A stretch of DNA of 64,000 nt from Symbiodinium sp. CCMP2592 (taxonomy: Eukaryota; Sar; Dinophyceae; Suessiales; Symbiodiniaceae). The translations under genes were made by a program, and so were the position numbers. The notes beneath the pieces are model-generated. The model ran no database searches. It saw nothing but the letters and a program-made list of their open reading frames with translations, and was not told the origin of the DNA. Below, in pieces: positions 9,223 through 27,706 of the stretch (its first letter is position 1; each line of letters starts with the position of its first letter). The stretch lies in the NCBI GenBank assembly GCA_905221615.1, contig CAJNDT010002001.1, positions 1,574,381 to 1,638,380 on the forward strand, in the 5' to 3' direction.

Positions 9223-9835
9223 ATGGCCCAAAGGGGGGCACAGGAGAATGTAGAAAGTGTAGAGGATGCGGTCACTAAATGTGTCAAGCAATATGCCCGC
9301 TGCAGCGCTTCCGTAAGTTCTGCGGAGACACAGGACGTGTTGGCTTTAGTTGAGGCAGCAAAGACACTGCTGAAAGAACGTGCAGCCGTCGTTTTGAGTG
9401 CGGCTGCTCTGGAGCCAATTCTGTTGCAGTTCAGTTTGGACACCACACCTGTCAAAACTTGCCAGCGAGTGTCGCGGAAACATGGCGACCTCCATGTGAA
9501 GCGGGCTGCCACGACCCAGCATGATTATTTAGTGTGCCAGCTCTTCGTCACGGTGCGTGATGACACCGGCGGCTACAACCAAACCATGGTGTTCAGAGAC
9601 CCAGTGCGTTTGCAGCACGGAAAGACGATGCGAGCGCTCGCATCATGCGCTGTTGACAGTCCTGGAATGCGAGTGTCTGCCGCTCAGCCAGGTCGCATCT
9701 GCGTGCGACACCAGGTACATGACAGGGGAATCACCCAAAGTTTTACGAACGCGATGTCTGGTTTCTGGTTCACGCGGGCCTGCGAAGCTTTGTCCACAAC
9801 AGGGCCAGCGTCCGAAGACGTGGTTGCTTTGCATG
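9223..9835 (+). CDS. Outer-unit HMG-box-like protein, 5' part (interrupted by insertion)
   Basis: The ATG at 9223 (MAQRGAQENVE) opens the first 204 codons plus one base of a gene broken by the 17.9-kb insertion at 9836. The annotated stop after ...VVALHAQ is created by the inverted repeat of the insertion. If the element and one TG are removed, CAT-G joins AG-CTG at 27707 and gives VVALH-ELHTHVG in frame. The full gene would be 613 + 2738 = 3351 nt, 1116 residues. The N-terminal part is helical at first, then has a QHDYLVCQLFVTVRDDTGG region. I remember this family as a large unnamed dinoflagellate protein with a later HMG-like box. Confidence 0.85.
9834..9835. other. Left copy of 2-bp target duplication (TG)
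   Basis: TG directly precedes the left inverted repeat; the second copy is at 27705-27706. Dropping one copy with the element restores the reading frame, while keeping both creates a stop nine codons on. Confidence 0.75.
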
Positions 9836-9886
9836 CCCAATAGATCGGTTAAGGCAAATTCCTAACTAATAGGCAATAGTTAATTT
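9836..9886 (+). repeat. Left terminal inverted repeat
   Basis: It starts CCCAATAGATCGGTTAAGG. It pairs with 27654-27704 with two mismatches (bases 29-30) over 51 bp. Confidence 0.9.
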
Positions 9887-10035
9887 TGAGCATCAAAATT
9901 AACTATTAGTTAGAAATGGTGAATTAACTAATAGTTAATTTTAGAGTTAATTTTAAGATAAAATTTTTAACTAAAAATTAGTTAATTCTGTGGAATTAAC
10001 TATGGAAATTAACTTTTTTCAATAGCTGAAAAGTC
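9887..10035. repeat. Left subterminal AT-rich palindromes
   Basis: Repeated TTAACTATTAGTTAG / TAACTAATAGTTAA phrases and their complements form several overlapping hairpins. The same phrases recur just inside the right end (27540-27653), so both ends have matched subterminal structure, as expected for transposase-binding regions. Confidence 0.7.
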
Positions 10036-10590
10036 ATGAAATTGATCAGAAATAAGCATGAAAATCCAGAGCCAGGATGCATACACAGTAAGCATGGTCG
10101 TATCGTGGCCTCCCTTCCCTGGCCCTTGCCCTGCAGTGCGGGTCACAACCCCAGGCGACGGATTTGACACCGCCTTAATGCGGGCACCGCAGGCCCATGA
10201 GTCACGACACCCCTCTTCTTGCCTTCCGCCTGCAGATTAGCACCCCAGCGGGCACTTTAGCTCATCGTCCCGCTGTCATACCCCTCGAAAGGGGCGTTGG
10301 CTTCAAGGTGCCTGGGCCGCCCTGTCACCCGGCCAACGGTAACACACCGACCAAAACCCACAAACCGGGAAGTCAGTGTAGGTAGGGCTGAGAAAACTCT
10401 GACAGCTCAAAGTTTCGCAGAACAATAACCATGTCGAGAGCTCAAACATTCGCACCAGTGTGTCCATGGTGTGTATATTAGCTCAGAAAAGGTTTAGGGT
10501 TATCAAAAACTGCAAAAATAACCATGTGGAGAGAGTGCACATGAAAGCAAGCATCATCATGTCTCATATAGGAGACGTGCATCGGAAAGT
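10036..10590. other. Gene-free left arm of the element
   Basis: No gene is seen. The arm holds a GC-rich stretch (10100-10330) between AT-rich flanks and four copies of the AGTAANCATG motif or variants. Confidence 0.4.
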
Positions 10591-10599
10591 AACCATGTG

Positions 10600-11130
10600 C
10601 AATTCCAAAGCTTGAACCCCAGACAAAACATCCTTGAATGTCCTGGCAACTCCAAAAAACTTGAACCCCAGACAGAACACCCACGAACGTCCCTGAAGCT
10701 TGGTTTGGATTTTTTTTGGTGTTCAGGTGTAGGATTGGGAAGCGGGTCGTCCCTAAAACTCAACCCCAAAAAAAAAATCCCACAGTAACCATGACAAAAG
10801 CAACAAGCTTGAACCCCACAGTGAACAGCCTTGAACACCCTGGAAGCTTTGTTGGGATTTAGGGTTGTTTGGGGTCGTCCCTAAAACTCAACCCCAAAAA
10901 CCCATCCCACAGTAACCATGACAAAAGCAACAAACTTGAACCCCACAGTGAACAGCCTTGAACACCCTGGAAGCTTTGTTCGGATTTAGGGTTGTTTGGG
11001 GTCGTCCCTAAAACTCAACCCCAAAAACCCATCCCACAGTAACCATGACAAGTGCAACAAGCTTGAACCCCGCAGTGAACAGCCTTGAACACCCTTGAAG
11101 CTTTGTTCGGATTTAGGGTTGTTTTCACGT
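10600..11130. repeat. About three tandem copies of a 127-bp unit
   Basis: The phrase AGTAACCATGACAA recurs at 10784, 10911 and 11039 (steps of 127 and 128). It is followed each time by AAGCTTGAACCCC and GTTTGGGGTCGTCCC and preceded by AACTCAACCCCAAAAA. A diverged partial copy starts near 10600. The array lies between the left end and the 3' end of the transposase gene, so it may be part of the left control region or the 3' flank. Confidence 0.75.
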
Positions 11131-11230
11131 GCAGGATTGGGTTTAGGGTCGTTCTTGCTACTCCGTCTGAGAGGAAAAAGAAAAAGTAACCATGACCAAG
11201 TCTTCGAGTGGAAAGAAAGCGCTTGTGTTT

Positions 11231-13337
11231 TCACTCAACGGACGACAGGTGCAGCCCCATCCCTATTCGCCAGTGTTCCAACATCTTTGTGTTGGCAGCA
11301 GCAGCCTTTGTGCCACGAACGCAGTTTTGTGCCACCTTGCGAGTGATGCCCATGAAGTCCTCATTGGCGAAGCACCAAACCAGCCTGGGATTTACAGTGC
11401 CAGCCAACAGTGCACTGTGCAACACCATGTGCAGCTTCGCAGTTGTGTGGCAGAGCCAGGGGCAGTCTTCTTGCTCATGGAAGTGGTCTGCCACGAGTCC
11501 ATGCAAGTGAGCCATCTGGAAGGCTGCTGCCTTGAACTGGTTCGCCGCAGCCTGGGGGAAGAAGTCCTCATCGCGGTACTCGTCCAACAAAAGCTCCATC
11601 GTGCAGTTGGTCTTGAGCATGGCGAGGATCATCCTGTGGAGCTGCAGTTGCCCGTTCATGTATTTCTCCCAGAGGTGCAACATGGGCAGAGCCAGGCCCT
11701 TGACTTCAGCTGCTCGTCCCCGAAGCTTGGGGGGCCCGCTTTTGCGGACGAACATCGTGAGTCTGTTGAAGTAGGCATAGCGATGCTTCACACCGAGAAG
11801 CCGGTAGAGCTCTTGGAGCTCACTCCAAATTGTGAGGAGATTGGCTTGGGGGGTGTCCGTCATCAAGTAAAAGCACATGTAGTAGAAGAGGCCCCCGTAC
11901 ACGTACATGTCCGATCCAAGATATTTGCTATGCATATAGTCCACTGCAACTGTCGCTCCAGACACTGCAGGGATGTCGAACAAAGGGCATTTGCTCCTCT
12001 CAGGAAATGCCCTCCAGCTCGCCGGGCGCCAGCAGAGCCCGACCCACGGAGCAGTCTCTCGGAAGTTTCTCCAATTCATGGCAGCTCCTGAGCCGGTTGC
12101 AGGGCACAGGGGACAACAGTTCTCATTGCTGCTCCAGCGTGGGAGAGACAAAGATTTGGCGAAGAACTCTAAGTCCCCTTGCAGGCAGACAAGGACTCCA
12201 CAGAACCCATTGGCCAGCCAGTCGCCAGCCTTTCTTGCAGGCACAGAGCCCTCTGGGAACCTTTGCTGAGCTTTGGTTGGACAGATGCAAAAAAGCGCCA
12301 GAACAGTATACAGTAATCATGGCAGCAGACGAATACAAAAGAAAACTTGGGAGCAGGAAAAAGTAACCATGTAGCGAACCCTCGTAAATATTCATATGGC
12401 AACAAAACCATCTGTGTATATATACATAGATATATATATCTATCTTAATCTATATATACAAACATATTTGACTGAAGAAAAGAATACTTTATGCGGCCAG
12501 GCTCGGTCTTCCTTTCCAGTCGTGGGAAGGCCACTTGCCGTGGTAGAGGGCTGTAAAGGACCACTTGAGGATCCGAAAGAAAGTCTCCAACGTCCCATTG
12601 TCACCGGCGACAAGAAGCTGCTCGAACACAGACCAGACCAGGAACAAAGTTGCCTTGCTGCCGCCCCTGCAGAGCATACAGTGCCAGTTGAAGGTCTGCA
12701 GGAGCTTGGCCCAAACTTTGCCCAGGCCAGTGGTTGGGACGGCATCGCCGTGTAGTGCCAAAGGCAAGCAAGTTTTTCTGAAGTCATCTTTGTCAGCCAA
12801 TGTCCCATCCGCCATACACGGATGCTTGTCAAAGTGTTTCCAGAAAGCCTGCAAAGCTGGAACCCCACCAGGTAGAAAGGAAGCTTGCCAGTACCCTGGA
12901 TAGTGGTGGTAAAGTGCCGAAAAGACTTCGTGCGGCAGCATGAAAGCTTGAGCACTTTGTCCAGTCTTGAAGGGCAGGACCTCTTGAAACGGCCTCGGCA
13001 GCTTGCATTTGCCAGGCAGATAAGCCATCAGGTCCCTGTGGCAGTTGTTTGAGTGGGCCCCTGCAGTGCCTATTTCTGCAAGCTTCTTTAGGCGGCCCGG
13101 AACATCGCTCTCTGTCAAGCCAGCTGCCAACATGTCCTTCTTCGTCAGAGCAGCTATTCGCTGGACTTGCTGCGGCGTCAAGTCCCCCCATGCCCAAGCC
13201 TCCTCAAGGAATTGTGCCAACCCAGAATCCGCAGTAGAAGACGTCGCCGGGGTTTCCTCGCGAGCCAGCTGTTGCAACCGCTGTTTCTGTCCTCCTTTTC
13301 TTCGTTTCGGGGGTGGGACGTCGTCATCGTCCATCAT
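11231..13337 (-). CDS. Inner-element transposase-like protein, two exons, 625 aa
   Basis: Exon 1 is 13337-12495 (281 codons, starting MMDDDDVPPPKRRKGG, a nuclear-localisation-like start); exon 2 is 12265-11231 (345 codons with stop). The intron begins GC at 12494 and ends CAG at 12266, phase 0, and carries two GCATGNTTACT motifs. The junction joins HDWKG...A to QRFPEGSV. Both parts match, by memory, one continuous dinoflagellate protein family. Landmarks are FMLPHEVFSALY and LHGDAVPTTGLGKVW in exon 1, then CCPLC (331-335), VDYMHSKYLGSD (389-400) and KLHMVLHS near the C-terminus. Layout resembles the outer-unit protein at 1571 (DPMHC, PKHHYSLH), so the two may be distant relatives. It is the best candidate for the enzyme that moves the element. 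Confidence 0.8.
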
Positions 13338-13778
13338 CGCTCTGTCGCAAACGGCTACGGATATTCTGCACACTGTTTTTTTTTGGTTTGTACCTGAAAA
13401 AGCTTTTCTGTGGGTTTAGGGTCTACTAAGAAACAACTTTTCCTTCACCTCAATTAAGAAACAGAACAGAAACAGACCTCTGAGTCTGAGCATGAGGGTC
13501 GCGAGACTGTTGCTTCTTGACCACGGAAGAAGAAAGCAATCATGGCAGATGCACTCCAGAAAGAAACAATAATCAAGCACAGTCGTGTATACACAAGAGA
13601 ACAATAAACATGGCAGGGTTTACGGTTTTTGTAAGGAGGCCATCACATATGCACAGAGCACAGTGCATAACCCCAAAATAATCAAGCACGGCTTTGGACC
13701 GCTGGAAAATAAACATGCCAAAGCGGAATAATCATGCCAAAGCACTACAGAAGCGATTGCAAGTCCATGTGATAAAAG
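13338..13778. other. Spacer with motif copies
   Basis: No gene is seen. It contains four or five AATAANCATG-type motifs (13530-13735) and is the 5' flank of the transposase gene. Confidence 0.45.
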
Positions 13779-14162
13779 CTATATTGAGAAAAGTAAGCAT
13801 GCCAGCTGCACACACAGCAGTCTAATGGTCGCCACCGACACTTGACAGCACATCTCGCTCATTTTGGCGCCCCGGCTCTTGTCCGACTTTGTCGCAGGGA
13901 ACTTCTTTCTGGCCACCCTCTTCGAGGCTTTTTTGACCTTGACTTTTTCGCAGTTGTGAAGACCTTGACTGGGTTTTCTGCTGCTGTGCAGAGTAAAAGG
14001 CGAAGTCCAAGGTCTCAGCCTCTTCCCCGGCAGAAAGGTTTCAGGGACCCCTCTCTTCTCGGACACTTTCCAAAACGCCACCAGAAAGGAGACTGGAGCC
14101 CGGCTGTGCGGTCTGTGTGCTTCTGGCGACCAAAAAGCAGACAAGTCTATGTCTGTATACAT
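13779..14162 (-). CDS. Possible exon(s) of a basic protein
   Basis: An open stretch encodes a Lys/Arg-rich segment (KVKVKKASKRVARKKFPATK) and ends near a motif copy at 13790. The upstream part (VSFLVAFWKVSEKRGV) could be a separate exon. Two frames are open here and I could not decide between them; the longer basic frame fits the Lys-rich style of the other inner genes. No start or splice site is certain. It could be the 3' part of an unrecognised gene, or chance. Confidence 0.3.
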   Translation of the reverse strand: MYTDIDLSAFWSPEAHRPHSRAPVSFLVAFWKVSEKRGVPETFLPGKRLRPWTSPFTLHSSRKPSQGLHNCEKVKVKKASKRVARKKFPATKSDKSRGAKMSEMCCQVSVATIRLLCVQLACLLFSI

Positions 14163-14516
14163 ATCTTTATCAACCCTACACCCCTAAACCCAAACAGACC
14201 AGCTCTAGGTTTGAAGCGGGCCCGGCCTTTTGCTACGTGTCTACGGCAACCCAGCCAGTCGCAAGCACAGACACACACAGTGTCTAGTGGCCCGGAGCTT
14301 TTCTGTCCTGGCCGAAAGTGGTGAGAAGGCCCTTTTGTTTCTTGAAGCCTTGGAGAGAAGTTCAAGGTAGATCCTAAGAGCCCACTGGGCGCCCAGAGAT
14401 GTGCCACAGGAAATCTTGACTGAAGTATTAGCATACACATGTTTCCTATCTACATAAGTACCTTTCTAAAGAGTCCTACTCTAGACTTCGGTACATCTCT
14501 GGGAGACACAGCGAAC
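14163..14516. other. Spacer
   Basis: No gene is supported. A short minus frame at 14147-14440 has mixed composition and no splice support. Confidence 0.35.
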
Positions 14517-16538
14517 TCAGTCAGCCCTCGCTTTAACCACTGCTTTGACCTTCTCCAAGGTCTCGTTGGCTCGATCCGTGTCATCCCCCAGCTGCTGCAT
14601 GAACTTTTGGACGTTCTGCTTGGAGAGCCCTCCCGGCAGTTCCTGGGAGAAAACATTGGAGGGACAACAAAAGAAAACCCTGCACTTTCAAACCTCACAA
14701 ACTGTTTGTTCTTCCAACACACATGTTCAAACAAAATGTTATCCAAAGCCAACTGTCGTTCCACGTCAAGCAGTCACCGCAGACAGAGAGGCTCTTCGTC
14801 AGACTGCCAAGCACAGACTTCAGGTCCTGGACCCCGCAGACAAAGTCAAGACAAAAGTAACCAAGTTTTTGTTTGCTATGAAAATAACCATGCAGATTTA
14901 GGATCGTGACATAAAGGATGGGTTGCTTGCCTGATACCACTAGAACCAGAACAAAAACCCTGAGTGTGTCTATGTCTACACAGGCTTTAGGGATTAGAAG
15001 GGGTTAGGACTATGTGTGGATCTCCTCGGAAAGGTCGCTGTCCCCGAGAAGCTTGACCTTGGAGACGTAGCGCTGGGCGTCCCTCTGGAGCCTGTCGAGG
15101 GCCTGCTTGGCCTCGCTCAAGTTCGTCTCCACGACTTTCCACTTGACCTCCACCTCGACTGCTGGCTTGTCTTGCAGAGCCAGCTGTCGCTGCCCACTGG
15201 AGTTCCCCAAGACCACAGAGGTCTCAGGGCCGGACTCCCTGTTGGTGGCGGTCTCAAAAGACTGGGAGCCCTGCAAAGCCCAGGGCCTGCCACTGAAGAA
15301 GCTGCTAAGGGCGTCAAACTGCTCCACGTCCAAAGAGGCGCAGCCGCCACTCAGCTGCTGTGTGTCATTCGAGGTCTTGGTGCGGCCTGTCCTCACAGTC
15401 AAGGTGTGGTACAAGCCGCCTTGCTCGTACACGTCGCCACGTCTCAAGGCTGTCTTCAAGGCTTCCTCGTTGCCGTGGAAGACCTTCCACAACATGACGG
15501 AGTAAGACTCCCCCGTGCTGTAGCCCTCGGAGAACTTGGTGTCCGTGTTGGCTTTCCACGACTGAAAGTCCGGGCTGGTGGTGCACATCGTGTAGTTGCC
15601 GCTCCTGATACTCAAGCAAGAGTAGCCATGCATAGCCAACTTTGGACGATTTCAGAAGACACCCGGAACAATAATCATGCATGCTGCTGAAGACACAGAA
15701 ACGTCAAAGTAGGCAAGGGTGGCAGCAGTCATCGTGGATGCAGCCAGGACACCCGGAACAATAATCATGCATGCTCCTCTTTTCAACGAAGACACACAGA
15801 AAAAAGAAAGTAAGCAAGGGTCGCAGCAGTCATCCTGGATGCAGAAAGCACACCCAAAAGAGTAATCATGCCAGAAAAAAAAAACTAGTACCCAAAAAGC
15901 AAAACATTCCAGTTCCAGGCTAGGTTCTTGTTGACTTGAAACAATCTATTGATCAATTCAGTCTTGAAGAGCCTGGGGTTGGACTGCTGGTTCGCGGACT
16001 CGTACAGCTTGCGAACGTCTTCGGGGACGTTGCCGGCCTTGAGCATGCGAGCCATTTTTCTGGCTTTCCCGACGTCGCGGGTTTCCTTTTCGTCCGCCTC
16101 GCCCTCGTCGGTCTCGCCGTCCTCCTGCTCCTCGTCCTGGCCCTCCGCTTCCAGCACACGTTTGCTCCACTGCCTGGTTACACTCGCAAGCTTCTTGCTG
16201 TTGCCCTTGTTCTTCTTGGCTTCCTCGTTCTTGCTCTCGTCGTCCTCGGCCTCCTGTTCCTCGTCCTTGCCCTTGCTGTTGGGCTTGCTCTTGGGCTGTG
16301 CTTTTCCCTTCGGCTTGCCCTTGGGCTCTGCTTTTGCCTTGGCCTTGGCCTTTCCTTTTGGTTTGGCCTTGGCCTTCCCCTTCGCCGCGGCCTTAGCCTT
16401 GGCCTTCCCCTTGGCCTTTGGCTTCGTAGGGTTCTCCTTGGACTTCTTCTCGGCGGCCTCCTCTGCCGAAGCCTCCTTCTGCTCAGGAGTCTCCACTGCA
16501 GGCTCAGTCTTCTCAGAAGAAGTCGTCGGTTTGCCCAT
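14517..16538 (-). CDS. Lys/Ala-rich multi-exon protein (about four exons)
   Basis: Exon 1 is 16538-15901: MGKPTTSSEK, a Glu/Ala region, a long KAKAK/KGKPK repeat tract, then a conserved-looking KARKMARMLKAGNVPEDV segment. A GC donor at 15900 (phase 2) and a CAG acceptor before 15604 join VLFs frame to SGNYTMCTTSPDF. Exon 2 runs from 15604 to about 15020 (WKVFHGNEEALKTALRRGDVY). Exon 3 starts near 14826 (DLKSVLGSLTKSLS) after a CAG; its end is unclear. Exon 4 is 14642-14517 (ELPGGLSKQNVQKFMQQLGD... to stop). From memory, these blocks occur in this order in a large unnamed dinoflagellate family. The first intron carries several GCATGATTAYT motifs. Nuclear basic protein is an inference; function is unknown. 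Confidence 0.65.
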
Positions 16539-17180
16539 GGCGAAAGAGCAGACAGAGGGCAAGGAGTGGGGCAGGACTTGTCCACCTCGCTGGTGGTGAC
16601 ACGTCTCGAGGGCCCTTCAAAAGAGCAAAGCTCTGCAGATGGACAGTTCAATGTCGCTTCAGCAGCAGACAGACACAGAGTAATCGTGTCGAACAACACC
16701 GAAAACACCGTGAAGTCTGACAGTAACCAAGACAAGAGCACCCTCCCAAAGAATTACTTTGCTCACAGCTTCTGCGGTGAGACCTAGAAGAACCACTTCT
16801 AACCCTGCATGCGACATGCGGCTTCAAACGCTTTCCTAGCATCGCCCTCCATGGTTGCCGACATCCACGCATGCAATGGCCAACATAGCATATGCGGTTT
16901 CAAACGCTTTCGCAGAGTCGCTGATCTGAACAGTAGACTATTATGCCGGCCAAGTAAACGCCGTCCGTCTCATTTATTCATACTATGCATCGAGCACCAA
17001 CGGAACCAAAAACTACCGACATGCTGATTCATGCGCAATTCAGGAGTTGCCAGACCTCTGCTTCCATGCTTCGTGTCCTTTCCTAGTCAGAGGTCGCAAC
17101 CGCACACTCGACACAATGAATGTTGCCTTTTTTGTCCACTTTCTTGGCGAATTGCAGGTATGGAGATGCAGTGTTCTCTC
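16539..17180. other. Upstream region of the Lys/Ala-rich gene, no clear gene
   Basis: It holds degenerate motif copies (16680, 16722). The remainder to 17180 shows no supported coding; it has two similar phrases GCGGTTTCAAACGCTTTC (16826 and 16893). Confidence 0.4.
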
Positions 17181-17194
17181 CGCCCGTTACATTC

Positions 17195-17935
17195 CACAAG
17201 AAGAGGACGACGATGATGACCAGCACGAACACAAGCACGAGGAGGACGACGACGACAACGACGACGACAAAGAAAAGACGAGGACGACGAGCACGACACG
17301 AGGTATAGGGTTTCTTGCACCAGGACGACCACGACGACGACAACGACGACGACAAACAGAAGACGATGACGACGAGCACGATTTTGGTACTCAAACACCA
17401 ACACCGAAACCTTAAGCCAGAAAAACCCAACCCGCCAAACCCCAAACACCAAACCCTCCTTCCCAAACCGCCCAAACCCTCATCCCTAAACCTAGACCCC
17501 AAATCCATAAACACCAACTTCACAAAACCCTCTCAAACCCAAACCCCAAACCCGCCCAACCCTATAATATCACCACACCTACACCCCAAATCCTCTTAAA
17601 CCATGAAACCCTAATCCCGAAATCCCGCAGATCCTTAACCCCTAGACTTCCCTAAAGCCCTGAAACCTGAACCCCAGACCCCCATAACCCTAAACCCCAA
17701 AGCCCAGCAAAAAACATCCTAGACCCCAAGTCCTTAAAGCCTACACCCCTGAACCCTGAACCCCAGACCCCCGTAGCCCTAAACCCGAAAGCCCAGCCAG
17801 AAACCCCACACATCCCAAATCCTTAAACCCCGAACCATCCAAACCTGGAACCCCAAACCCTATAATCCCCAAACCCCACAAATCCTTAAACCCAACCACG
17901 AAACCCCCCTACAATCCAAATCCCTAAATTCTAAA
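17195..17935. repeat. GAC/GAT trinucleotide tract and degenerate CCCTAAA repeats
   Basis: An imperfect GACGACGAT tract occupies about 17200-17385. It is followed to 17935 by degenerate CCCTAAACCC/CCCCAAACCC repeats. The long frames here on both strands are repeat artefacts. No AGTAANCATG motif occurs, unlike the flanks. Confidence 0.65.
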
Positions 17936-18284
17936 TATTAAAGTAATCACTATGTAGTCATACCCACAATAATCGGATTCGTAGTCCTACTCCGAGGAAT
18001 AACATTATAGTAGTGTGATTATTATACTAGTTAAAGTAGCAGCAGTAGTAACCGTAGTAACCATAGAGTAGTAGCAGTAGTACTAGCCAGAGTAATAGTA
18101 GTAGCCATAGCAGGAATAGTACGGAGAGTCCTATAGGAATGCTAGGCAAGTTAGTCATAGTACGATCAGTAATAGTGGTAATAGTAGGAAAAGAATCGTG
18201 ATACTAAGAATGCTTAGAGAAATACTAGTAGTCATAGTACTAGGCCTAAACAATCCCTAACCTAGCCAATAGCGCCTAGGGTTA
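17936..18284. repeat. AGTAGTAG-rich spacer
   Basis: It is AT-rich with irregular AGTAGTAG/AGTAATAG phrases. No gene is seen. Confidence 0.5.
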
Positions 18285-19165
18285 GGGGTGGGGGTGGGGG
18301 TGGGGTTGGGGGTGGGGGGTGGGGGGTGGGGTTGGGGTTGAGGGTGGGGTGGGGTGGGGGTGGTGGGGCGGGGGTGGGGAGTGGGGGTGGGGGTGGTGGG
18401 GGCGGGGGTGGGGGGTGGGGGGTGGCGGGTGGGGGTGGGTGTGGGGGTGCGGGTGGGGGTGGGGGTGGTGGTGGGGGTAAGATTTTGTAAGGATTTCTTT
18501 TGTTTTTTTAATTTTTTTTGGTTTTTTTTTAAAGATTTTATTGGTTTTCAACAATGCTGATTGCAAGTTTGTTGCAAGTTTGTTGCAAACTTGCAACAAA
18601 CTTGCAATGGCACATTGCAAGTTTGTTGCAAGTTTGTTGCAAACTTGCAACAAACTTGCAATCACCATTGCAAGTTTGTTGCAAGTTTGTTGCAAACTTG
18701 CAACAAACTTGCAATGGTGATTGCAAGTTTGTTGCAAGTTTATCAATTGCCATAGCCATAAGGTATACCAAAACCTATATATATATAGGTAAAATGATTG
18801 TTTTCAAACTTGCAATCACGATTGCAAGTTTGTTGCAAGTTTGTTGCAAACTTGCAACAAACTTGCAATGGCCCATTGCAAGTTTGTTGCAAACTTGCAA
18901 CAAACTTGCAACAAACTTGCAATGGCCCGTTGCAAGTTTGTTGCAAACTTGCAACAAACTTGCAACAAACTTGCAACCCTGATAGTTGAAAACCAATAAA
19001 ATCTTTTAAAAAACCAAAGATTTTATAAAAAAAATAAGAAACTCCTTAAAAAAATCCTACCCCACCACCACCCCCACCCCCACCCCCCACCCCCACCCCC
19101 ACCCCCACCCCCATCCCCACCGCCCACCCCCCACCCCGACCCCCCCACCCCCACCCCACCACTCC
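18285..19165. repeat. 880-bp palindrome with G-rich and C-rich arms
   Basis: The left arm (18285-18480) is nearly all GGGGGTGGG units. The right arm (19055-19165) is the complementary CCCCCACCC. Inside these, GATTTTATTGGTTTTCAAC (18535) is mirrored by GTTGAAAACCAATAAAATC (18986). The core is built of TTGCAAGTTTG and its complement, itself self-complementary, repeated about 20 times around a TATATA loop near 18780. It can form a very long hairpin, and the G-rich strand could form quadruplexes. Frames of CKFVASLQQTCNK type here are artefacts. Probably a nested foldback element. Confidence 0.85.
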
Positions 19166-19420
19166 TAAAGCCCTATACCACGTAAAAACCTAAACCCTCT
19201 CAAACCCTGTACCGTAAATACCTGAACTCTTATCACGACCAACCTTGAACCCCAGACCCCAATCCCCAAGCAACCCTGAACCCCTATCCCTAATCTCCCA
19301 AACCCCCAAACCCTAAACCCCAAAGCCGAACCCCCCTACACCCCAAATCCTTTAAGCCTGAAATCCTGAATCCTGAACCCTAAATTCCTCAATCCCTAAA
19401 CCCCAAAGCTCAATAAGAGA
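19166..19420. repeat. Degenerate CCCTAAA repeats
   Basis: These mirror the CCCTAAA-type block at 17400-17935 and close the motif-free gap. Confidence 0.5.
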
Positions 19421-19589
19421 AAGTGCTGGACTGACGAGAAACCTGTGGGCCGCTGGGAGACATTGCACAAAATAACCATGCAACTCTACATGCATCTGTC
19501 GCATACACGAGAAGTAACCATGGCTCCGACAACAAAGGGACTTAAGTAAACATGGCACGGCAACTCATTGTGGACACACTAGCTTTGCT

Positions 19590-20432
19590 TGTTTTCCCCG
19601 AGCTCGCCATGGACTTCGCTGTGCTGGCTCTCGCCAGGCCCTCGCCATGGACTTCGCTGCTGCCCGCTGCCGTGGACCTGGAATGGCCAAGGCGGTCACA
19701 CGACAGGGTTTTGTTCCAAAGACCAACAGTAATCATGCAGCACTTCTGCCGAGCAGCTTTTGAAAAAACTTTCCCCTCTTTTGCTCCTCCTGCCACTGGA
19801 GAACCTGCCGTCAGCTGCCCGCTGCCGTGGACCTGGAATGGCCAAGGCGGTCACACGACAGGGTTTTCTTCCAAAGACCAACAGTAATCATGCAGCACTT
19901 CTGCCGAGCAGCTTCTGAGAAAAAACTTTTCCCTTTTCCTCCTCCTGCCACTGGAGAACCTGCCGTCATCATGCAGCGGACTTTGTTCCAAAGGCACACA
20001 GTAATCATGCAGCACAGATCCACAAAGATCGTGTTCTGCCGAGCCGCTTCTAACGGCTTTGCTTTGTCCTCTGGGACTCCGTGGTCGCCGCCTGCCTCTC
20101 CGACCTGGGCCCCCCCAGCAAAGCTTTCGCAGAAAAGTAATCATGCAACACAGGTCAGGCAACACTTCTATAAAAGGACAAGCAGCTTCGAGTGGCTGGT
20201 TGTCGAAGTCTCCGGCGGCGAACGTCTCCTGGGTTGCCGGCAAAAAAAACCATGTCGCATATGCTTGGGAACCTGCTTAAAACAGAAAAACCAGCTTGCA
20301 GGCAGGACACTGGCACAAAGGACAGGCACCAGAGCAGCAAGGACAGCTCGGCCGCACTATGCGGCCTCGCTCGTCCATGTACATCTTGTGCCAGCCTGGC
20401 CGCCGCTGGCAACTCCCGGTGTGCTGCATCAT
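19590..20432 (-). CDS. Cys-rich multi-exon protein with duplicated small exons
   Basis: Exon 1 is 20432-20296: MMQHTGSC...W...KMYMDERGR followed by eight cysteines in CPCCSGACPLCQCPAC, a likely zinc cluster. Exon 2 is 20228-20187 and exon 3 is 20123-20048 (FAGGAQVGEAGG...KPLE). The junctions are GC-AG and the phases 2, 2, 0 close correctly (137 + 42 + 76 = 255 nt). Exon-like units of exactly 47 nt at 19959-19913 and 19804-19758 are near copies (GTTCTCCAGTGGCAGGAGGA start). The last exon and stop, near 19590, are uncertain. Introns carry the GCATGATTACT motif. The leader upstream (about 20520-20985) is a duplicate of the leader of the gene at 24070. Function is unknown. Confidence 0.55.
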
Positions 20433-20519
20433 GCTGCTGTTGTGAGCTAGCTGTGTCTGTGCCGTGACATTTGTGTGTCTGTGTGTGTCTGTGTGTGTCT
20501 GTCTGTGTGTGTGTGTGTG

Positions 20520-20985
20520 TCTGTGTGTGTGTGCCGTGTGTGCTGTGTGTGCTGTGAGTGCTCTCTGCTGTGGTCCTTGTTTGAAGTGCTCTCTGCTGCG
20601 GAGTGCTGTGTGTGTGTGAAGTGCTCTCTGCAATTGTCTCTTTAGAGGCTGTGCTGGTGCTCTCTGCTTTGCACACGGGCCTCAGAAGAGGCACCCCTTT
20701 GAGCTGCGAAAAACGGTTGCCGGGTTCAACATGTCTTTCCACAAGCTCCATGAAGTGGACAGTAAGCATGCGGGCACAGGAACTGCTTCTCTGGAAAGTC
20801 TCAAAAGCAAGCATGCCCAGACTGCTTCTGCAAAGTGCACTCACAGTAACCATGCCGCAATCAAGCAACAGTAAGCATGCACACCACGAGAACTGCAGAG
20901 TAAGCATGCTTCAAAAACACTGTGTTCATGCTAAGTACAAAGAGTAACCATGCCAGAAAATCTCAGCAGGCAAAGTGCCAAAAGT
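20520..20985 (-). promoter_or_regulatory. Duplicated leader block, copy 1
   Basis: About 460 bp closely match 24133-24605: GTGT-rich part, AGTGCTCTCTGCTG phrases, AAAAACGGTTGCCGGGTTCAA, then six or seven AGTAANCATGC motifs. It lies directly upstream of the minus-strand start at 20432. It probably holds the promoter and 5' leader, perhaps with leader introns. Confidence 0.7.
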
Positions 20986-21241
20986 AAGCATGCCGAGCTG
21001 CACTTGCTTCCCCGGGTTTCTTCTCTTAGCTTCTCTGGCTTGTTTGGATCTTCGGGCTTCGGGTCTCCTGAAACAGATACAGTAAGCATGACACAAGCTG
21101 ACGGAAAAGGTGGACAGTAAGCATGCCGAGCTTCGCTTGCTTCTCCGGGGGTTCCTTCCTAGCTTCTGTGGCTTGTTTGGATCTTCGAGCTTCGGGTCTC
21201 CTTACAAAAGCCCAGAGAGTTTTTCACCGGAGGCGGGCAGC
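20986..21241. other. Short spacer with duplicated 90-bp phrase
   Basis: Two similar phrases of AGTAAGCATGCCGAGCT...CTTGTTTGGATCTTCG occur at 20981-21060 and 21117-21190. It lies between the stop of the 13-exon gene and the next leader. Confidence 0.5.
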
Positions 21242-24070
21242 TCACTCATCCGGCTCGCCCAGACCCCCGCTCAGGTAGAGCCGGATGGCATCATCATCCG
21301 GCTCCGTGGAGGTCTCCTCCGTGTCCGCTTCCTCTGCCCTGGGCAGCACGAAAAAACAGAAAGTAAGCATGCTCACAGGGTACATTTTTATAGGGACACT
21401 TTAGCTTCCTTTTACTTTAGGTCCTAAAGAGCTTCTGCCTGAAAAAATAAAATAATCATGCCTGGAGAAAAAGTAACCATGCCAAGACCTCAAGAAAAAC
21501 TGAGCCAAGTTTCGGGGAGGTTGGCTCCTGGTCCATGTCTTCGACAGGCTGCGACCTGAAGCTTGGGAAGGAAGAAGTAAGCAGCTATTCTTGTTTCTCC
21601 GTGGGTTAGAAGACTTTGACAAAGAACTGAACACCCAAAGCAAGGACACCGTACTATGCTAATTGCTTCCAGTGTCGGCGAAAGAGCAAAAGTGGCAGCA
21701 CTTGGACCAGAAGGCAGACTTGGCGCTTGCGGCCTTTGCTGCCAGCATCTGAAGACAGAGGGTTCAACTCTGTGTTTATAGAACAGTAATCATGCCACAA
21801 GCAGAGTAATCATGCCAGAAGCACAAACCCGGTACTGCTGAATTGCATCGAGTTTCGGAGCGACCTCCTCAGCACCGTCACCAGCTGCAGCTTCGGGCGG
21901 GGCTGTTGGCTGCCTTTGCTGGTGTTTAGAGAACAGTAATCATGCCACAAGCAGAGTAATCATGCCAGAAGCACAAACCCGGTACTGCTGAATTGCATCC
22001 AGTTTCGGAGCGAGCTCCTCGGCACCGTCACCAGCAGCAGCTTCGGGCACCGGTGTTGGCTGCCTTTGCTGGTTTTAGGCTTCTACCAAAAAAGAATTAG
22101 GGTACAGTAGAGAAAAAGCAGCAAAGTAACCATGCCGACACCCAAAAAAAAAACAACTGCCCCTGATTGCTTCCAGTTTCGGAAGCAGCTCCTCAGCAAC
22201 GACACCACGAGCAGCATCGGCCGGGGCTGTTGGCTGCCTTTGCTGGCAGAGCTCCATTAAAACACAGTTTTAGGCTTCTACCAAAAAAGGTTTAGGGTAC
22301 AGTCGAGAAAAAACAGCAAAGTAACCATGCCGAGACCCTAAAAAAAAACTGCCCCTAATTGCTTCCAGTTTCGGAAGCAGCTCCTCAGCAACGACACCAG
22401 CAGCAGCATCGGCTGGTGCTGTTGGCTGCCTTTGCTGGCAGAGCTGCATTAAAACACAGTTTTGGGCTTGTACCAAAAAAAGGTTTAGGGTACAGTAGAC
22501 AAAAAGCAGCAAAGTAACCATGCCGAGACCCTAAACAGTAGACAAAAAGAAGCAAAGTAACCATGCCGAGACCCTAAACAACAACAACTGCCCCTAATTG
22601 CTTCCAGTTTCGAAAGCAGCTCCTGAGCAACGGCGAAACCACCAGCAGGCATTGTCGGCCCCGGCCTTTGCTGGTAGCTGCATTGAAACCCAGTTTAGGG
22701 TTGCATCAAAAAGGTTTAGGGTAAAGTAAAGCAAAAGAAGCAAAGTAACCATGCCAAAGCCCTACAAAACTAGAAAAGTGTTGAAGTGCTTCCAGATTCA
22801 GAGGCAGCTCGTGAGCACCTGAACCAGGTTCGCCAGCACCCTGACCACCAGCAGCAGTGTCAGCAGTGGGCCTGAAAAGACAAGGTTTAGGGGACTGCAC
22901 AAAACAAACAAAGTAACCATGCCCCACTAAAACATGCTATATCTGCTTGCTTCCAGAATCCTCCGGGCCAACACACGAGCCACACTGCCCTTTGCGGTTT
23001 TCACAGGTGGAGCCTTTTCTGGCCTTTGCTGGTAGCAGAATTGAAACACAGTTTAGGGGTGCACGGGAAAGGTTTAGGGGACTGCAGACAACAAGCAAAG
23101 TAAGCAAGCCACACTCTGCTAGAGCTGCTGAGCATCAGAGGCTTGCAAACCGCACCAGTCCCCTGGCTACCCATGGCCTTGGAGGTGGTCTCCTGTTCAG
23201 GGGATTACAAAAAGCACCAGAGAAAATCCAGTAAACTTCTTAAGCATGAGTGTATACATATAGATATATAGATATATATATATAGACAACAAGTAGCCAT
23301 GCCACAAAAACAAAAAAAGTAATCATGCCGCACACACAGCTGCTCCTGCTTGTCAGCAGGGTAGTAAAAGATCTCTGGAGCAGCAGTCCAGATGTTCTGC
23401 TTCTGCAGTGGCTGGGGGGTGCTCGGCCTGGCCTTCTTCCGGGGAGGCGGTGCTGCCTTTGGCGCCGGTGGCTCCGGCGGGAAAGTGGGTGGTGGCACTG
23501 GTGGTGGTTTTGGGCGGAGAGGTGGCCGTGCTGCTGCTGCTGGTGCTGGTGGTGGTGGTGGCGGTGGTGGGAGGGTTGGTGGTGGTGGTGGGCGAAGGGG
23601 TTTGGTGACAGGTGGGGGGATGGGTGGTGGGGTGGGGATGGTATGGTTGACATCCGGGGAGAATGTCGCCCATGTGTCCCTGTCCCCCAGACGATGGCCT
23701 CGCAGCAGCCTTGTGGTCAGAGGGATCTCAAAAGAAACAAAAAGCAGCAAAGTAACCATGAGCAAACCAGAAAAACAAAAAACATTTCTAAGTGCTTCTC
23801 AAAGCAACAAAAGTAAGCATGAACAAAGCAGAAAAAAAAAACATTTCTAAAAGTGCTGTCGGGCATCGCAGCGTAGTGCTGGCCCTGCGAGAACCCCACT
23901 CGGAGGTGTATGTAGGCCGACGAGACATCACTCTGTGAATCTCGGCCAGGGAACATGAAAACGTTCACCGCCTCCTCGTCAAGCCCTGTCTGGGCCGCCG
24001 CCCACCGCTGGACGTCGCCAGCAAACCATGCCAGCGGCAGGTTTTTCACGTAAACCCGCACAGTAGCCAT
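21242..24070 (-). CDS. RRM-like/Pro-rich protein, 13 exons with repeated-exon array, 455 aa
   Basis: Exons: 24070-23857, 23698-23350, 23192-23147, 23028-22951, 22894-22790, 22670-22602, 22434-22363, 22242-22171, 22068-21997, 21918-21847, 21737-21666, 21555-21506, 21338-21242. They sum to 1368 nt, an open frame with a stop. All 12 introns (56-167 nt) start GC and end AG. Exon 1 begins MATVRVYVKNLPLAWF, like the first strand of an RNA-recognition motif. Exon 2 is proline-rich with a PRKKARP basic patch. Exons 4 and 6-11 are homologous 69-78-nt phase-0 units, consensus QRxPxAP...EELxPKLE; exon 5 is a more diverged 105-nt unit. The last exon is acidic (AEEADTEE). Every intron carries the GCATGNTTACT motif, degenerate in introns 3 and 11. 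RNA binding is an inference. Confidence 0.8.
21666..23028 (-). repeat. Tandem exon-intron array
   Basis: Eight successive exon-intron units of about 150-240 bp repeat the same order: CAG|CAAAGGCAG acceptor side, Pro/Ala/Glu exon, CTGGAA|GCAATTAG donor side, GCATGRTTACTTT motif, then often CCCTAAACC and a pyrimidine tract. The pairs 22242-22171/22434-22363 and 21918-21847/22068-21997 are almost identical, so these duplications are recent. Confidence 0.8.
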
Positions 24071-24132
24071 GCTGGGTTTACGTGAAAAAGTCCTAGACAC
24101 GAGTGCTTGTCTGTGCTGTGACTGCTGTGCTG

Positions 24133-24605
24133 TGTGTGTGTCTGTGTGTGCTGTGTGTGCTGTGTGTGCTGTGAGTGCTCTCTGCTGTGGTCCTTGCTGT
24201 TTGCAGTGCTCTCTGCTGCGGAGTGCTGTGTGTGTGAAGTGCTCTCTGCAGTTGTCTCTTTAGAGGCTGTGCTGAGTGCTCCCCTGGTGCTCTGCTTTGC
24301 ACAGGCCTCTGAAAAGGCCCACCTCTTTCAGCTGCGAAAAACGGTTGCCGGGTTCAACATGTCATTCCACAAACTCCAAGAAGTGGACAGTAAGCATGCG
24401 GGCACAGGAACTGCTTCGGGAAAGTCTCAAAAGCAACCATGCACAGACTGCTTCTGCAAAGTGCACTCACAGTAACCATGCCGCAATCAATCAACAGTAA
24501 CCATGCACACCACGACAACTGCAGAGTAAGCATGCTTCAAAAACACTGTTCTCATGCTAAGTACAAAGAGTAACCATGCCAGAAAATCTCAGCGGGGAAA
24601 GTGCA
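24133..24605 (-). promoter_or_regulatory. Duplicated leader block, copy 2
   Basis: It is the partner of 20520-20985 and lies immediately upstream of the RRM-like gene start at 24070. It carries AGTAAGCATGCGGG, AGTAACCATGCCGC and four or five further motif copies in the same order as copy 1. Homology stops shortly before each start codon; the two coding regions are unrelated. Confidence 0.7.
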
Positions 24606-25344
24606 AAAAGTGATCATGCAACAAACATATGTTTCTGGATTGTGCAAACAGTAGCCATGCAACAAAAACTTCTTAAGGAAAATGCAGATAGTAATCATGT
24701 AGCAAAGAACAGCTGTTTCTGGAAACGATATACGGACAGTAACCATGCAGCACAATGTGTGTTTTTTCTAATTACCAAAAGAGGAGAGCTGTTCAGGGCT
24801 TCTCTGGCGCCAAGCTTTGGGCCTTTGAGCTGTTGCTTCAAAGTTCGGTGTTAAACTACAGGGCTTCAAACCCACTGAAAGACAAAAGCCTCTCCCTGAA
24901 CACCCGGAAAAGGACGGGGTGAGTGCTCCCTGTGAGGCTTCTTCTGCTGCTCTCTTTTTTCCAAGACACCGACACAGGTCTTGCAGCCTTCAGAGGACCG
25001 AGACTTAAGCCGCACAGATGTGCAAGAAGCAACCGCTGCTTCCTTCAACTATAAAAAAGGCATGTGAAGAGACTGTGAGGAACAAAAGAATCCCTATAAT
25101 GTTTGTCAACCACTCTAAACACGATACACTATTGCCAACCGGAACCACACATTGCCCAGGCCCGGACCTTGCCGGAGTACTGTCACAAAGAGATTCCTGT
25201 GTGTATGCTTGGAACAAAAAGCAGCTAGACTTTTGCTAAAGACAGACGATACACACCAAAACTGGCTTTTATAAGGGTTTAGGGTTGGGTCCAACATTTG
25301 GCACAAAACAGCATACACACGGAACATCTCTCCGAAAAAGCCCT
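24606..25344 (-). other. Spacer with motif copies and one possible terminal exon
   Basis: Motif copies occur at 24612, 24650, 24690 and 24737. A minus-strand stretch at about 25010-24869 (SEGCKTCVGVLEKREQQKK... to stop) could be a last exon of the upstream gene at 26700, but I found no phase-consistent junction. The rest shows no gene. Confidence 0.35.
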
Positions 25345-26700
25345 CTACTCCTGAGAGGGCTGTATCTCCCCTTTGTCCACCTTCTCACTCCACCGTGCCC
25401 TCGCTTCTCTCGCCTCCGCCTTTGCCGAGTCGGGAGACAGACCACGGCCGAGGGCAGCCACTCTCCTCACAAACTTGTTTCTGCTGGATACATGTGTGTG
25501 TGTGTGAATTACATAGGGTTTAGGGTTTAGGGTTTTATAAACCAAATCGCCAAACTTTCTTGAAGAATGTCCCAGGTTCGCCGAGTGGTAGACACGGGAA
25601 GACTTGCGGTGTCGCCAGGTGCTCTTCAAGAAGACTCCGTTCTTTACCTTCTGTGTGTCTGGTTCTAATCATGCAGCTTGTCAAAAACAGTAACCATGCG
25701 AACAAGTAACCAGTAAATAATCATGCAGCTCCTCACAAAAAATAGCCTTAGACCGCCTCTACGAAATAAAAACTATTCCAATATGCACCAAGCAGGTCAC
25801 GGTAGCAGCAGGAGCTTTCGCCGTCGCTTTGGCCTTCGCAGTCCCTTTGGCCTTCGCCGTCGCTTTAGCCTTGCCCTTGGCTTTAGCCTTTGTCCTGACC
25901 TTCGCCTTGGGCTTTTGGACACTCACGTCTTGAGTCATCCAAGAGCAAAGCTCCTCCTCTTCGTCCACGTTCAGGAAGAAGCTTGCCAGGCTTCGCTTGA
26001 GCTTCGGCAAAGCCAAAGCTTCGCCACTCGAGGAACCCTTCTCCACCATAACCCCCTCGCGACTCGCTTCCGAGTCCTTCCTGGCGAGGACTCTCGCGAA
26101 CACTGCAGACCCGGCAGGCCGTGCCGCTGCTGCTGAAGCTGTGCTCGGTGCTGAGGAGGTTGCTGGAGCTGTGCTCGGTGCTGAGGCTGCTGAGGCTGCT
26201 GGAGCTGTGTTCGCCGCTGTTGTGGACTCAAAGGTCAAGAAGGACAACATGCTGTCGATGATTTCCTTCTCTGAACTGGAAGCCTTGCGACATGCCCTGC
26301 CGTATGCTCCACTGTCCACCTTCAAGTTTCTCCAGTTTGCACAGAGCTGCCGGACGTACTGGTCGGCGACGTCCACGAAGTCATAGTCGGACTTTTTCGA
26401 AAAGTTGATCCGACCATGCTCCGTCTGCAGCTTGTTCAGGCATGCTTTCAGTTTCGTCGACTGAATCACACCATTGCTGCACACTCGGAACAGGCCTTGC
26501 ATCAAGTTCGCAGCACCAGGCTCGCACAAGGCATCGAGGGGTGCCGTCGTTTTCCAAGTGGTGTTAGAGGCGAAACGGTCCAGACGAAGCAAACCCGACA
26601 GGTCTCGGGACCCCAGCTCCCTGAAAGTAGTCTCGAAGGCCTTCATCAGGTCGCCCACGGTCACCGCAGGGTCAGGTGTGAGCCGCTGGCCAGACGGCAT
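25345..26700 (-). CDS. Ala/Lys-rich protein, at least two exons
   Basis: Exon 1 runs from ATG 26700 (MPSGQRLTPDPAVTVGDLMK) to about 25790, roughly 300 codons. Its N-terminal half looks folded (LMKAFETTFRELGSRDLSGL; VADQYVRQLCANWRNLK). It is followed by an Ala/Pro/Ser linker, an acidic NVDEEEELCSW patch and a KAKAKGKAKA tail like that of the gene at 16538. The intron that follows carries three motif copies (25672-25722). A likely second exon after CAGCAG near 25487 encodes RNKFVRRVAALGRGLSPDSAK... and stops at 25345. The junction phase was not resolved. It is the most 5' gene of the inner minus-strand group and lies next to the right end. Function is unknown. Confidence 0.6.
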
Positions 26701-26925
26701 ATTGCTCTGTGGGCACGGAGGGAGCAGAAAAGCTCAGCTAGACGTCTGTTTTGTGTCTGTGGTTTTGGCAACCCTAAACCCTCTGCTGCAGAGTTTTGTT
26801 TGCACAGGCGCTTGGCTGTTTGGAGCTTCTGGGTCTCACCTGGAACTGCCTGTTCCCCGTTTGGGCCTTCAACGGGCTGCCCGGAGAAGTCGCGAGTTCG
26901 GCTTTCACTGAAGCTGGCACAAGTC
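26701..26925. other. 5' flank of the Ala/Lys-rich gene
   Basis: No separate gene is seen. A short plus-strand frame here is a shadow. Confidence 0.35.
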
Positions 26926-26929
26926 AAAC

Positions 26930-27310
26930 GTCTGCCCAACACGAACCATGTGAGTCCTGAACTGAGCAAAAATAATCATGCAGCTTGTCCAAAACAGTAA
27001 CCATGCGAACAAGTAACCAGTAAATAATCATGCAGCTCCTCACAAAAAATAGCCATGAGAACACATAACCTTGCGAAAATAATCATGCAGCTCATCACAT
27101 AAAGTAACCATGCGAACACACAACCTTGCCAAAATAATCATGCAGTTCTGCACATAAAGTAACCATGCGAGCACGACCTTGTGGGAAAATAATCATGCAG
27201 TTCCGCAAACACAGTAACCATGCGAACACATAACCTTGGGAAAATAATCATGCAACACCTCAAACACAGTAACCATGCGAACTTTTCTAACCCTGCAAAC
27301 CTCTTGGGAA
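26930..27310. repeat. Tandem array of about 55-bp units each with two motifs
   Basis: Six units alternate AAAATAATCATGCAGCTC and CACAGTAACCATGCGAACA (motif pairs at about 26969/26996, 27024/27049, 27078/27104, 27132/27158, 27187/27213, 27243/27269). Part of a further unit recurs at 25672-25722. The array lies about 400-750 bp inside the right end. Confidence 0.75.
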
Positions 27311-27539
27311 ACAACACAGTAAACATGCAGCGGAATAGCCTGCAGCCTCTCCGCATGCGCCTTTTTTCTTGTCCGTCCTGCCCCCCCCCTTCCTACAGCG
27401 ACTGGATACTTCTCCTCTGTAGCGAACAACCTGCTCGCCCGCTCTATTTTGTTACCAAAATCGATACAGTAACCATGAAAACGTCTACACTTTTGCACGG
27501 CATCTCCAATACGACAGCTGTTATTTTCATTGAACAAAC

Positions 27540-27653
27540 ATGCTTTTTATAGCAAATTAACTAAAAATAGTTAAGGAAAAACAAGCCTAAATTAACTAAT
27601 AGTTAATTCTAAATTAACTAATTAGTCAATATTTTTTCTAACTATTAGTTAGG
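27540..27653. repeat. Right subterminal AT-rich palindromes
   Basis: TTAACTAATAGTTAA-type phrases match the left subterminal region in inverted layout. Confidence 0.7.
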
Positions 27654-27704
27654 AAATTAACTATTGCCTATTAGGCAGGAATTTGCCTTAACCGATCTAT
27701 TGGG
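27654..27704 (-). repeat. Right terminal inverted repeat
   Basis: Inverted partner of 9836-9886. It ends ACCGATCTATTGGG, followed by the TG duplicate at 27705-27706. Confidence 0.9.
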
Positions 27705-27706
27705 TG

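Follow-up and report, generated by a model that had tools for sequence, protein, structure and literature searches.

The window, a 64,000-nucleotide stretch of the Symbiodinium sp. CCMP2592 assembly (genome of about 1.1 Gb; the strain is named S. tridacnidorum in the available part of PMC8045281), contains a giant DNA element of 17,869 bp that lies at 9836-27704 and interrupts a host open reading frame (ORF). Three of its genes are well supported (a transposase and two genes that we call A and B) and two are weaker (a multi-exon RRM-like gene and a small Cys-rich ORF). A short motif, GCATGRTTAYTKT, is dispersed through the element in one orientation. The principal features are as follows.

9223..9835, plus strand: host open frame, 5' part, interrupted (reading frame across the junction)
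9834..9835, no strand: left 2-bp target site duplication, TG (window sequence; duplications match in 11 of 12 copies)
9836..9886, plus strand: left terminal inverted repeat, 51 bp, beginning CCCAATAGATCGGTTAAGGC, also at the ends of other copies
9887..10020, no strand: left subterminal A/T-rich region with AATTAACTATTAGTTA-type palindromes (window sequence)
10051..27477, minus strand (gene-sense): polar motif GCATGRTTAYTKT, densest array at about 26971-27477
11234..12260, minus strand: transposase exon 2, with the second Asp of the DDE triad, C2C, D2H, H3H and the catalytic Glu (alignment of relatives)
12261..12504, minus strand: putative transposase intron, GA-AG, with two motif copies within (comparison with relatives)
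12505..13337, minus strand: transposase exon 1, with the first Asp of the DDE triad, in HGD (ORF reading, relatives)
14517..16538, minus strand: gene B, with a Lys/Ala-rich basic N-terminus, a conserved central domain and long predicted C-terminal helices (relatives, model)
25345..26700, minus strand: gene A, first gene at the right end; in other families its homologues precede the transposase in the same orientation (genome search, co-location)
27654..27704, minus strand: right terminal inverted repeat, 51 bp (window sequence)
27705..27706, no strand: right target site duplication, TG (window sequence)
27707..30444, plus strand: host open frame, 3' part, with a weak HMG-box-like stretch (E 0.00065, under the Pfam cut-off)

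An earlier note on this DNA had placed the element at 9834..27706; the element itself stands, but the outer 2 bp on each side are the TG duplication and not part of it. The matching 51-bp inverted ends, the TG on both sides and the subterminal A/T-rich likeness described there are all present in the window sequence. The two ends are identical at 49 of 51 positions, the mismatches being positions 29-30, and their A/T-rich subterminal stretches align beyond the repeats. Removal of the element and one TG joins ...EDVVALH to ELHTHVG..., as had been claimed, and the rejoined host sequence (9223-9835 plus 27707-30444) is a single open frame of 3351 nt.

A genome search with the left end gave 49 matches, and inverted-end copies do exist elsewhere in the genome, a matter that the earlier note had left to a search. 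Both ends were read for 12 copies, the window included. Six are long (the window; C1072, 17,862 bp; C5370, 18,118 bp; C2981, 18,121 bp; C5220, 30,249 bp; C569, 33,839 bp) and six are short (6.2-6.5 kb), their identity to the window copy being 96-97% at the left end and 81-82% at the right. In C5252 and C5072, the two short copies whose ORFs were listed, the transposase is reduced to a relic, and the short class thus looks non-autonomous. C1072 and C5370 are 99.92% and 98.87% identical to the window element and lie in flanks unlike the window's, with duplications of their own (TA/TA and CG/CG), so the window insertion is no assembly accident at one locus. The 2-bp duplications match in 11 of the 12 copies (10 of 11 without C2981): TG, TA, CG, TA, TA and TA in the long copies and TA, GA, TT, AA and GT in the short ones, the TA/TA match being less informative for C569 and C5252, which lie in or beside TA-rich sequence. 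The copy that fails is C4246 (GA/AA).

Sequence corresponding to the target of C1072 before insertion is found elsewhere in the genome: from 347 candidates 40 matches were scored, every one of which runs across the junction with 97-100% identity, and four are 100% identical over 301 bases. These empty sites are paralogous. No empty site was found for the window's own target, which is single-copy in this genome, so that its own empty site is not visible. Several near-identical copies (C5220, C569, C2981, C4246 and C5072) occupy gapped or probably misjoined assembly sites. A gap of 100 N interrupts both C5220 and C569. The probable chimera among them is C2981, since its left flank is that of C5220 and its right flank that of C569, both at 100% over 500 bp. 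Likewise, C4246 or C5072 may be misjoined, because the two have an identical left flank (500/500 bases) and unrelated right flanks. That the element is a DNA transposon is, in our judgement, virtually certain; it is real and multi-gene and was probably active recently, and its intact ORFs and near-identical copies suggest that it may be autonomous. The description of a giant multi-gene DNA transposon with its genes on one strand is upheld by the ORFs, the other copies and the empty sites of C1072.

The transposase is read from two exons whose splice is proposed by comparison with relatives, the database model of P0001 being spliced another way; GA donors were permitted in the annotation of the CCMP2592 genome, according to the available part of PMC8045281. 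A database protein of Symbiodinium sp. CCMP2592 is 98% identical to it. With the proposed splice, the catalytic signature would be intact (D198, D307, C327/C330, D385xxH388, H555/H559 and E578), and the C, H and E columns are invariant in the 15-member transposase alignment A1. The model of a relative, P0002 (pLDDT 87.8), has a predicted RAG1-like fold, so the enzyme that makes the cuts would be like RAG1, the recombinase of antibody genes, in its predicted fold. Across the 15 members no Pfam match rises above noise, the best having an E-value of 0.058 and being to a non-transposase domain, and no significant match to the PDB was found by sequence. A search of the genome with exon 2 gave 118 scored matches (of 975 candidates) with identities down to 32%, 114 of which are stop-free.

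Genes A and B accompany these transposases. A relative of gene A, P0027, has 98 matches in the genome (129 scored of 212 candidates). For 68 of them a transposase on the list follows downstream, in the same orientation and no more than 30 kb away, at distances of 7.4-25.8 kb (median 10.7 kb); a transposase lies only upstream of 1 of the 98 and on the opposite strand in none. The chance expectation is about 0.0016 per match. Fifty-nine of the 68 pairs fall outside the window family, and gene A lies upstream of 67 of the 88 transposases outside the family of 32% identity (f32). These counts cover the scored lists only, and some gene A matches share one transposase. In the family of 38% identity (f38) the transposase has a gene B homologue as its neighbour on the same strand (E-values to 1e-21), and a weak one (0.042) lies beside the transposase in f32. 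Both families were read at their left part, about 5.5 kb of element per copy, and single large elements would be expected there. The left end of f38, CCTCTAAGATCAGGTTAGGC, resembles that of the window; left ends begin CCT in f38 and CCC in f32. Because they recur on the same strand with related transposases, A and B look like conserved machinery and are probably not cargo. The window element would then be one family among several in a class of large elements that share an A...B-transposase core. Pfam gave no convincing match for either gene or for the element ORFs scanned (the best for gene B, DUF7032, has an E-value of 0.0041, under its cut-off); gene B had no significant PDB match by sequence, and its model (pLDDT 62.2) had none at E 0.001.

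Gene B exists in two versions. In C5370 and C2981 it is about 8% diverged from the window's (24-25 differences at 255 synonymous sites and 67-68 at 942 non-synonymous ones), with a rough ratio of non-synonymous to synonymous change (dN/dS) of about 0.75, unlike the transposase and gene A, which are almost unchanged in these copies. The element copies are on this account mosaics. The block around gene B, 14300-17300, is a mosaic or swapped block between two sets of otherwise near-identical copies.

The dispersed motif went unremarked in the earlier note. Its core, CATGRTTAYT, occurs on the gene-sense strand in 55 exact copies and in 87 with at most one mismatch, and not once on the other strand; in shuffled sequence the corresponding numbers are 0.03 and 1.41. 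When sites with similar flanks are removed, 48 of the 87 are left, with the consensus GCATGRTTAYTKT, and a T at position +11, outside the search pattern, is near fixed among them (44/48). An earlier form of the pattern, which gave 80 sites, was used for two further counts: the 46 kb of the window outside the element hold no exact and four one-mismatch copies, and only 1 of the 80 motif starts lies inside an exon, where exons cover 5107 of 17,869 bp, their spans being approximate and two of the five genes weak. Across the 1.1 Gb of the genome, 165 motif pairs were found as against 7 for a reversed control, and 97 of the 100 listed sites fall within complete or partial copies of the element, so the motif is essentially confined to the window's element family. 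It is not a host-wide branch point, since f38 and f32 lack it in the sequence read. Downstream of the motif A there is an excess of pyrimidines, and the first AG lies 12-45 nt away at 69% of the 48 sites compared with 48% at random (8 of 2000), a spacing and composition like those between a branch point and its 3' splice site. The substitutions among four 18-kb copies (4/800 motif bases and 228/17,069 others) are too few to argue from. In f38 (L051 3531-9000, plus strand) there is a candidate one-way word of its own, TTGCTACTTAG; the word TGCTACTTA occurs there in 10 copies with at most one mismatch, and in none on the opposite strand.

Three further features lie within the element.

18269..19181, no strand: low-complexity centre, with a (GGGGTG)n arm, an array of TTGCAAGTTTG palindromes and a complementary C-rich arm (long imperfect inverted repeat)
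20298..20432, minus strand: small Cys-rich ORF, a possible gene, weak (ORF reading; no Pfam match)
21242..24070, minus strand: multi-exon gene, weak to moderate, with an RRM-like first exon, a Pro-rich exon, near-repeat small exons and a C-terminal exon (by eye)

An array like the central one is present in five of six compared 6-kb derivatives and not in C5252. Degenerate telomere-like CCCTAAACCC tracts occur in the element (17400-19450) and in the right flank (28000-64000). The exon structure of the multi-exon gene and the RRM reading of its exon at 23851-24070 were made by eye; the gene matched no Pfam family, and the RRM-like exon had no significant PDB match by sequence. Between the window and C5370 this exon differs at 4 of 52 synonymous and 2 of 164 non-synonymous sites (Fisher P 0.03). 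Several near-repeat modules at 21650-22900 resemble small exons that have been duplicated (QRQPTAPPEAAAGDGAEEVAPKLDAI-type), and the stretches that separate them carry the motif.

The explanation that we prefer is that the element is a giant cut-and-paste DNA transposon of the CACTA/EnSpm-Mirage-Chapaev-Transib (CMCT) clade and one family of a class whose core is formed by three genes. Its RAG1-fold DDE transposase would act on the CCC...GGG inverted repeats and insert with a 2-bp staggered cut, and the two other core genes, B next to the transposase and A at the far 5' end, would be conserved partners, not passengers, with possible roles in end binding, synapsis or control of the transposase. 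A transcription unit running from the right end to the left, as the strand of the ORFs suggests, would carry the family-specific oriented GCATGRTTAYTKT outside its exons, and in the element's pre-mRNA the motif could serve as a splice or branch-point-like signal, or as an RNA-protein signal, by which the element's own transcripts are processed or recognised. The RNA-level role is preferred because of the strand, the avoidance of exons and the AG spacing. GCATG presumably resembles the RNA site of RBFOX. Taken as a whole, the RNA role of the motif included, this is the best explanation, held with a confidence just short of even. Several observations weigh against it. At least one intron of gene B (about 14643-14757, an approximate reading) has no motif copy, so splicing does not strictly depend on the motif; several copies occur in some introns, and the right-end arrays are denser than splicing would call for. 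The AG and pyrimidine effect is modest and the exons are approximate. The motif is absent from f38 and f32 within the sequence read, and the termini are CC..GG, not the CA..TG usual in the CMCT clade. Finally, gene A lies upstream in none of the 30 scored copies of f32, so that either the core is not universal or A is too diverged there.

The motif may instead be a DNA-level recognition site, bound by the product of gene B or A, which would pair the ends or repress the element; this is possible, if doubtful, and remains a strong rival for the motif's role. Motif copies are most tightly packed in the right-hand subterminal 0.7 kb, and the 6-kb class retains both ends with five exact-type right-end copies in the same orientation in each of six copies. 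The available part of PMC2613891 describes asymmetric subterminal motifs, 4 left and 24 right, in the soybean element Tgmt*. At five right-end sites that can be aligned between the 18-kb and 6-kb classes, fewer bases differ than between sites (3/58 vs 49/214, P 0.001), but these are five of ten sites, the alignment may be motif-anchored, and over all ten the contrast vanishes (18/105 vs 91/429). The motif moreover keeps a single orientation over 17 kb, so that it points towards one end and away from the other, and its copies occupy introns and intergenic DNA at a distance from both ends while shunning exons. We consider it unlikely that the motif is a functionless by-product of tandem duplication and amplification of intron/exon modules. 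Part of the copies do lie in tandem units of 127, 55 and about 190 bp, and the ten-site count has motif bases changing about like others; however, the 48 sites that survive flank filtering, the near-fixed T at +11 and the conservation at the five alignable sites speak against this account.

The earlier note had counted at least five genes beyond the minimum needed for transposition, which implies a transposase-only transposon carrying captured host genes as cargo. Swapped cargo would fit the two versions of gene B and their dN/dS, and the partial sequences of f38 and f32 showed nothing homologous to the RRM-like or the Cys-rich gene. A and B, however, keep their order and strand with diverged transposases, which largely refutes the idea for these two genes and leaves only the two weaker ones besides, so that we regard it as quite improbable and the count as unsupported. 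An assembly artefact or an integrated virus is highly improbable: some copies are gapped or chimeric, and the size falls within the polinton-like range (14-40 kb in the available part of PMC12220804), but the matching duplications in differing flanks argue against both, and the 40 empty-site matches of C1072 largely refute them for the element as such. No Pfam match to a capsid, DNA polymerase B or integrase was found in the eight element ORFs scanned; 66 pattern matches in viral contigs were followed up as possible relatives, and none was related by tblastn.

Extending the preferred explanation, the element might represent a new dinoflagellate lineage of giant RAG1-fold transposons built on the A/B/transposase core, in which the pre-mRNA of each family bears a private, strictly oriented 'address word' read by an element-encoded protein, giving the element control of splicing, trans-splicing or export of a polycistronic transcript. 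This is speculative and rather less than probable. No description of such elements in dinoflagellates was found among the open-access papers listed, Repbase and most subscription papers lying outside the search, and few dinoflagellate DNA transposons were found in the literature searched. The novelty appears to lie in the lineage, in the A...B-transposase core and in the dispersed motif with its single orientation. Giant size alone is not, since Tgmt*, a CACTA element, measures 20.5 kb (PMC2613891, available part). If true, a class of large elements with a RAG1-like enzyme and two conserved partners would give the clade from which V(D)J recombination arose a further branch. Because this coral symbiont has copies that are nearly identical and probably moved recently, it could be a starting point for a native gene-transfer tool, and with the one-way motif one can test directly whether transposons are able to label their own RNA (or DNA) over their whole length.

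Among known systems, the element is most readily compared with the CMCT clade, which also takes in Plavaka, ESTA, Lanisha and RAG1. It shares the DDE triad with C(2)C and H(3-4)H between the second D and E, and its 2-bp duplication is within the clade's 2-5 bp. It differs in its CC..GG termini, where the clade has CA..TG 'in most cases', in having no Pfam transposase match, and in the conserved A and B of its class, with 7-26 kb between A and the transposase across families. From CACTA/EnSpm proper it is set apart by its CCC termini and the lack of a recognisable Tnp2 (Transposase_21) domain. With RAG1 and Transib the likeness is the predicted fold, at about 10% identity; their target duplication is 5 bp, against 2 bp here, and no RAG2-like partner was recognised, no search having been aimed at one. 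Tgmt*, as far as the available part of PMC2613891 describes it, is alike in its giant size, in encoding a transposase and a putative DNA-binding product, and in an asymmetric repeated motif that differs between families, its authors arguing for diversity of motif and protein between families; it differs in its 3-bp duplication, CACTA ends and subterminal motif, that of the element running its whole length in one orientation. The same portion of that paper presents the subterminal repeats of plant CACTA elements as recognition sites of TnpA-type proteins, and the two-component logic of Spm/En TnpA-TnpD, a transposase with a second protein, is plausible for the element, although the orientation and spread of the motif differ. 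Dinoflagellate introners, in the available part of PMC11453091, are likewise mobile DNA with splicing-related signals, but introners make introns, whereas the element described here is of giant size, carries coding genes and breaks into a coding frame.
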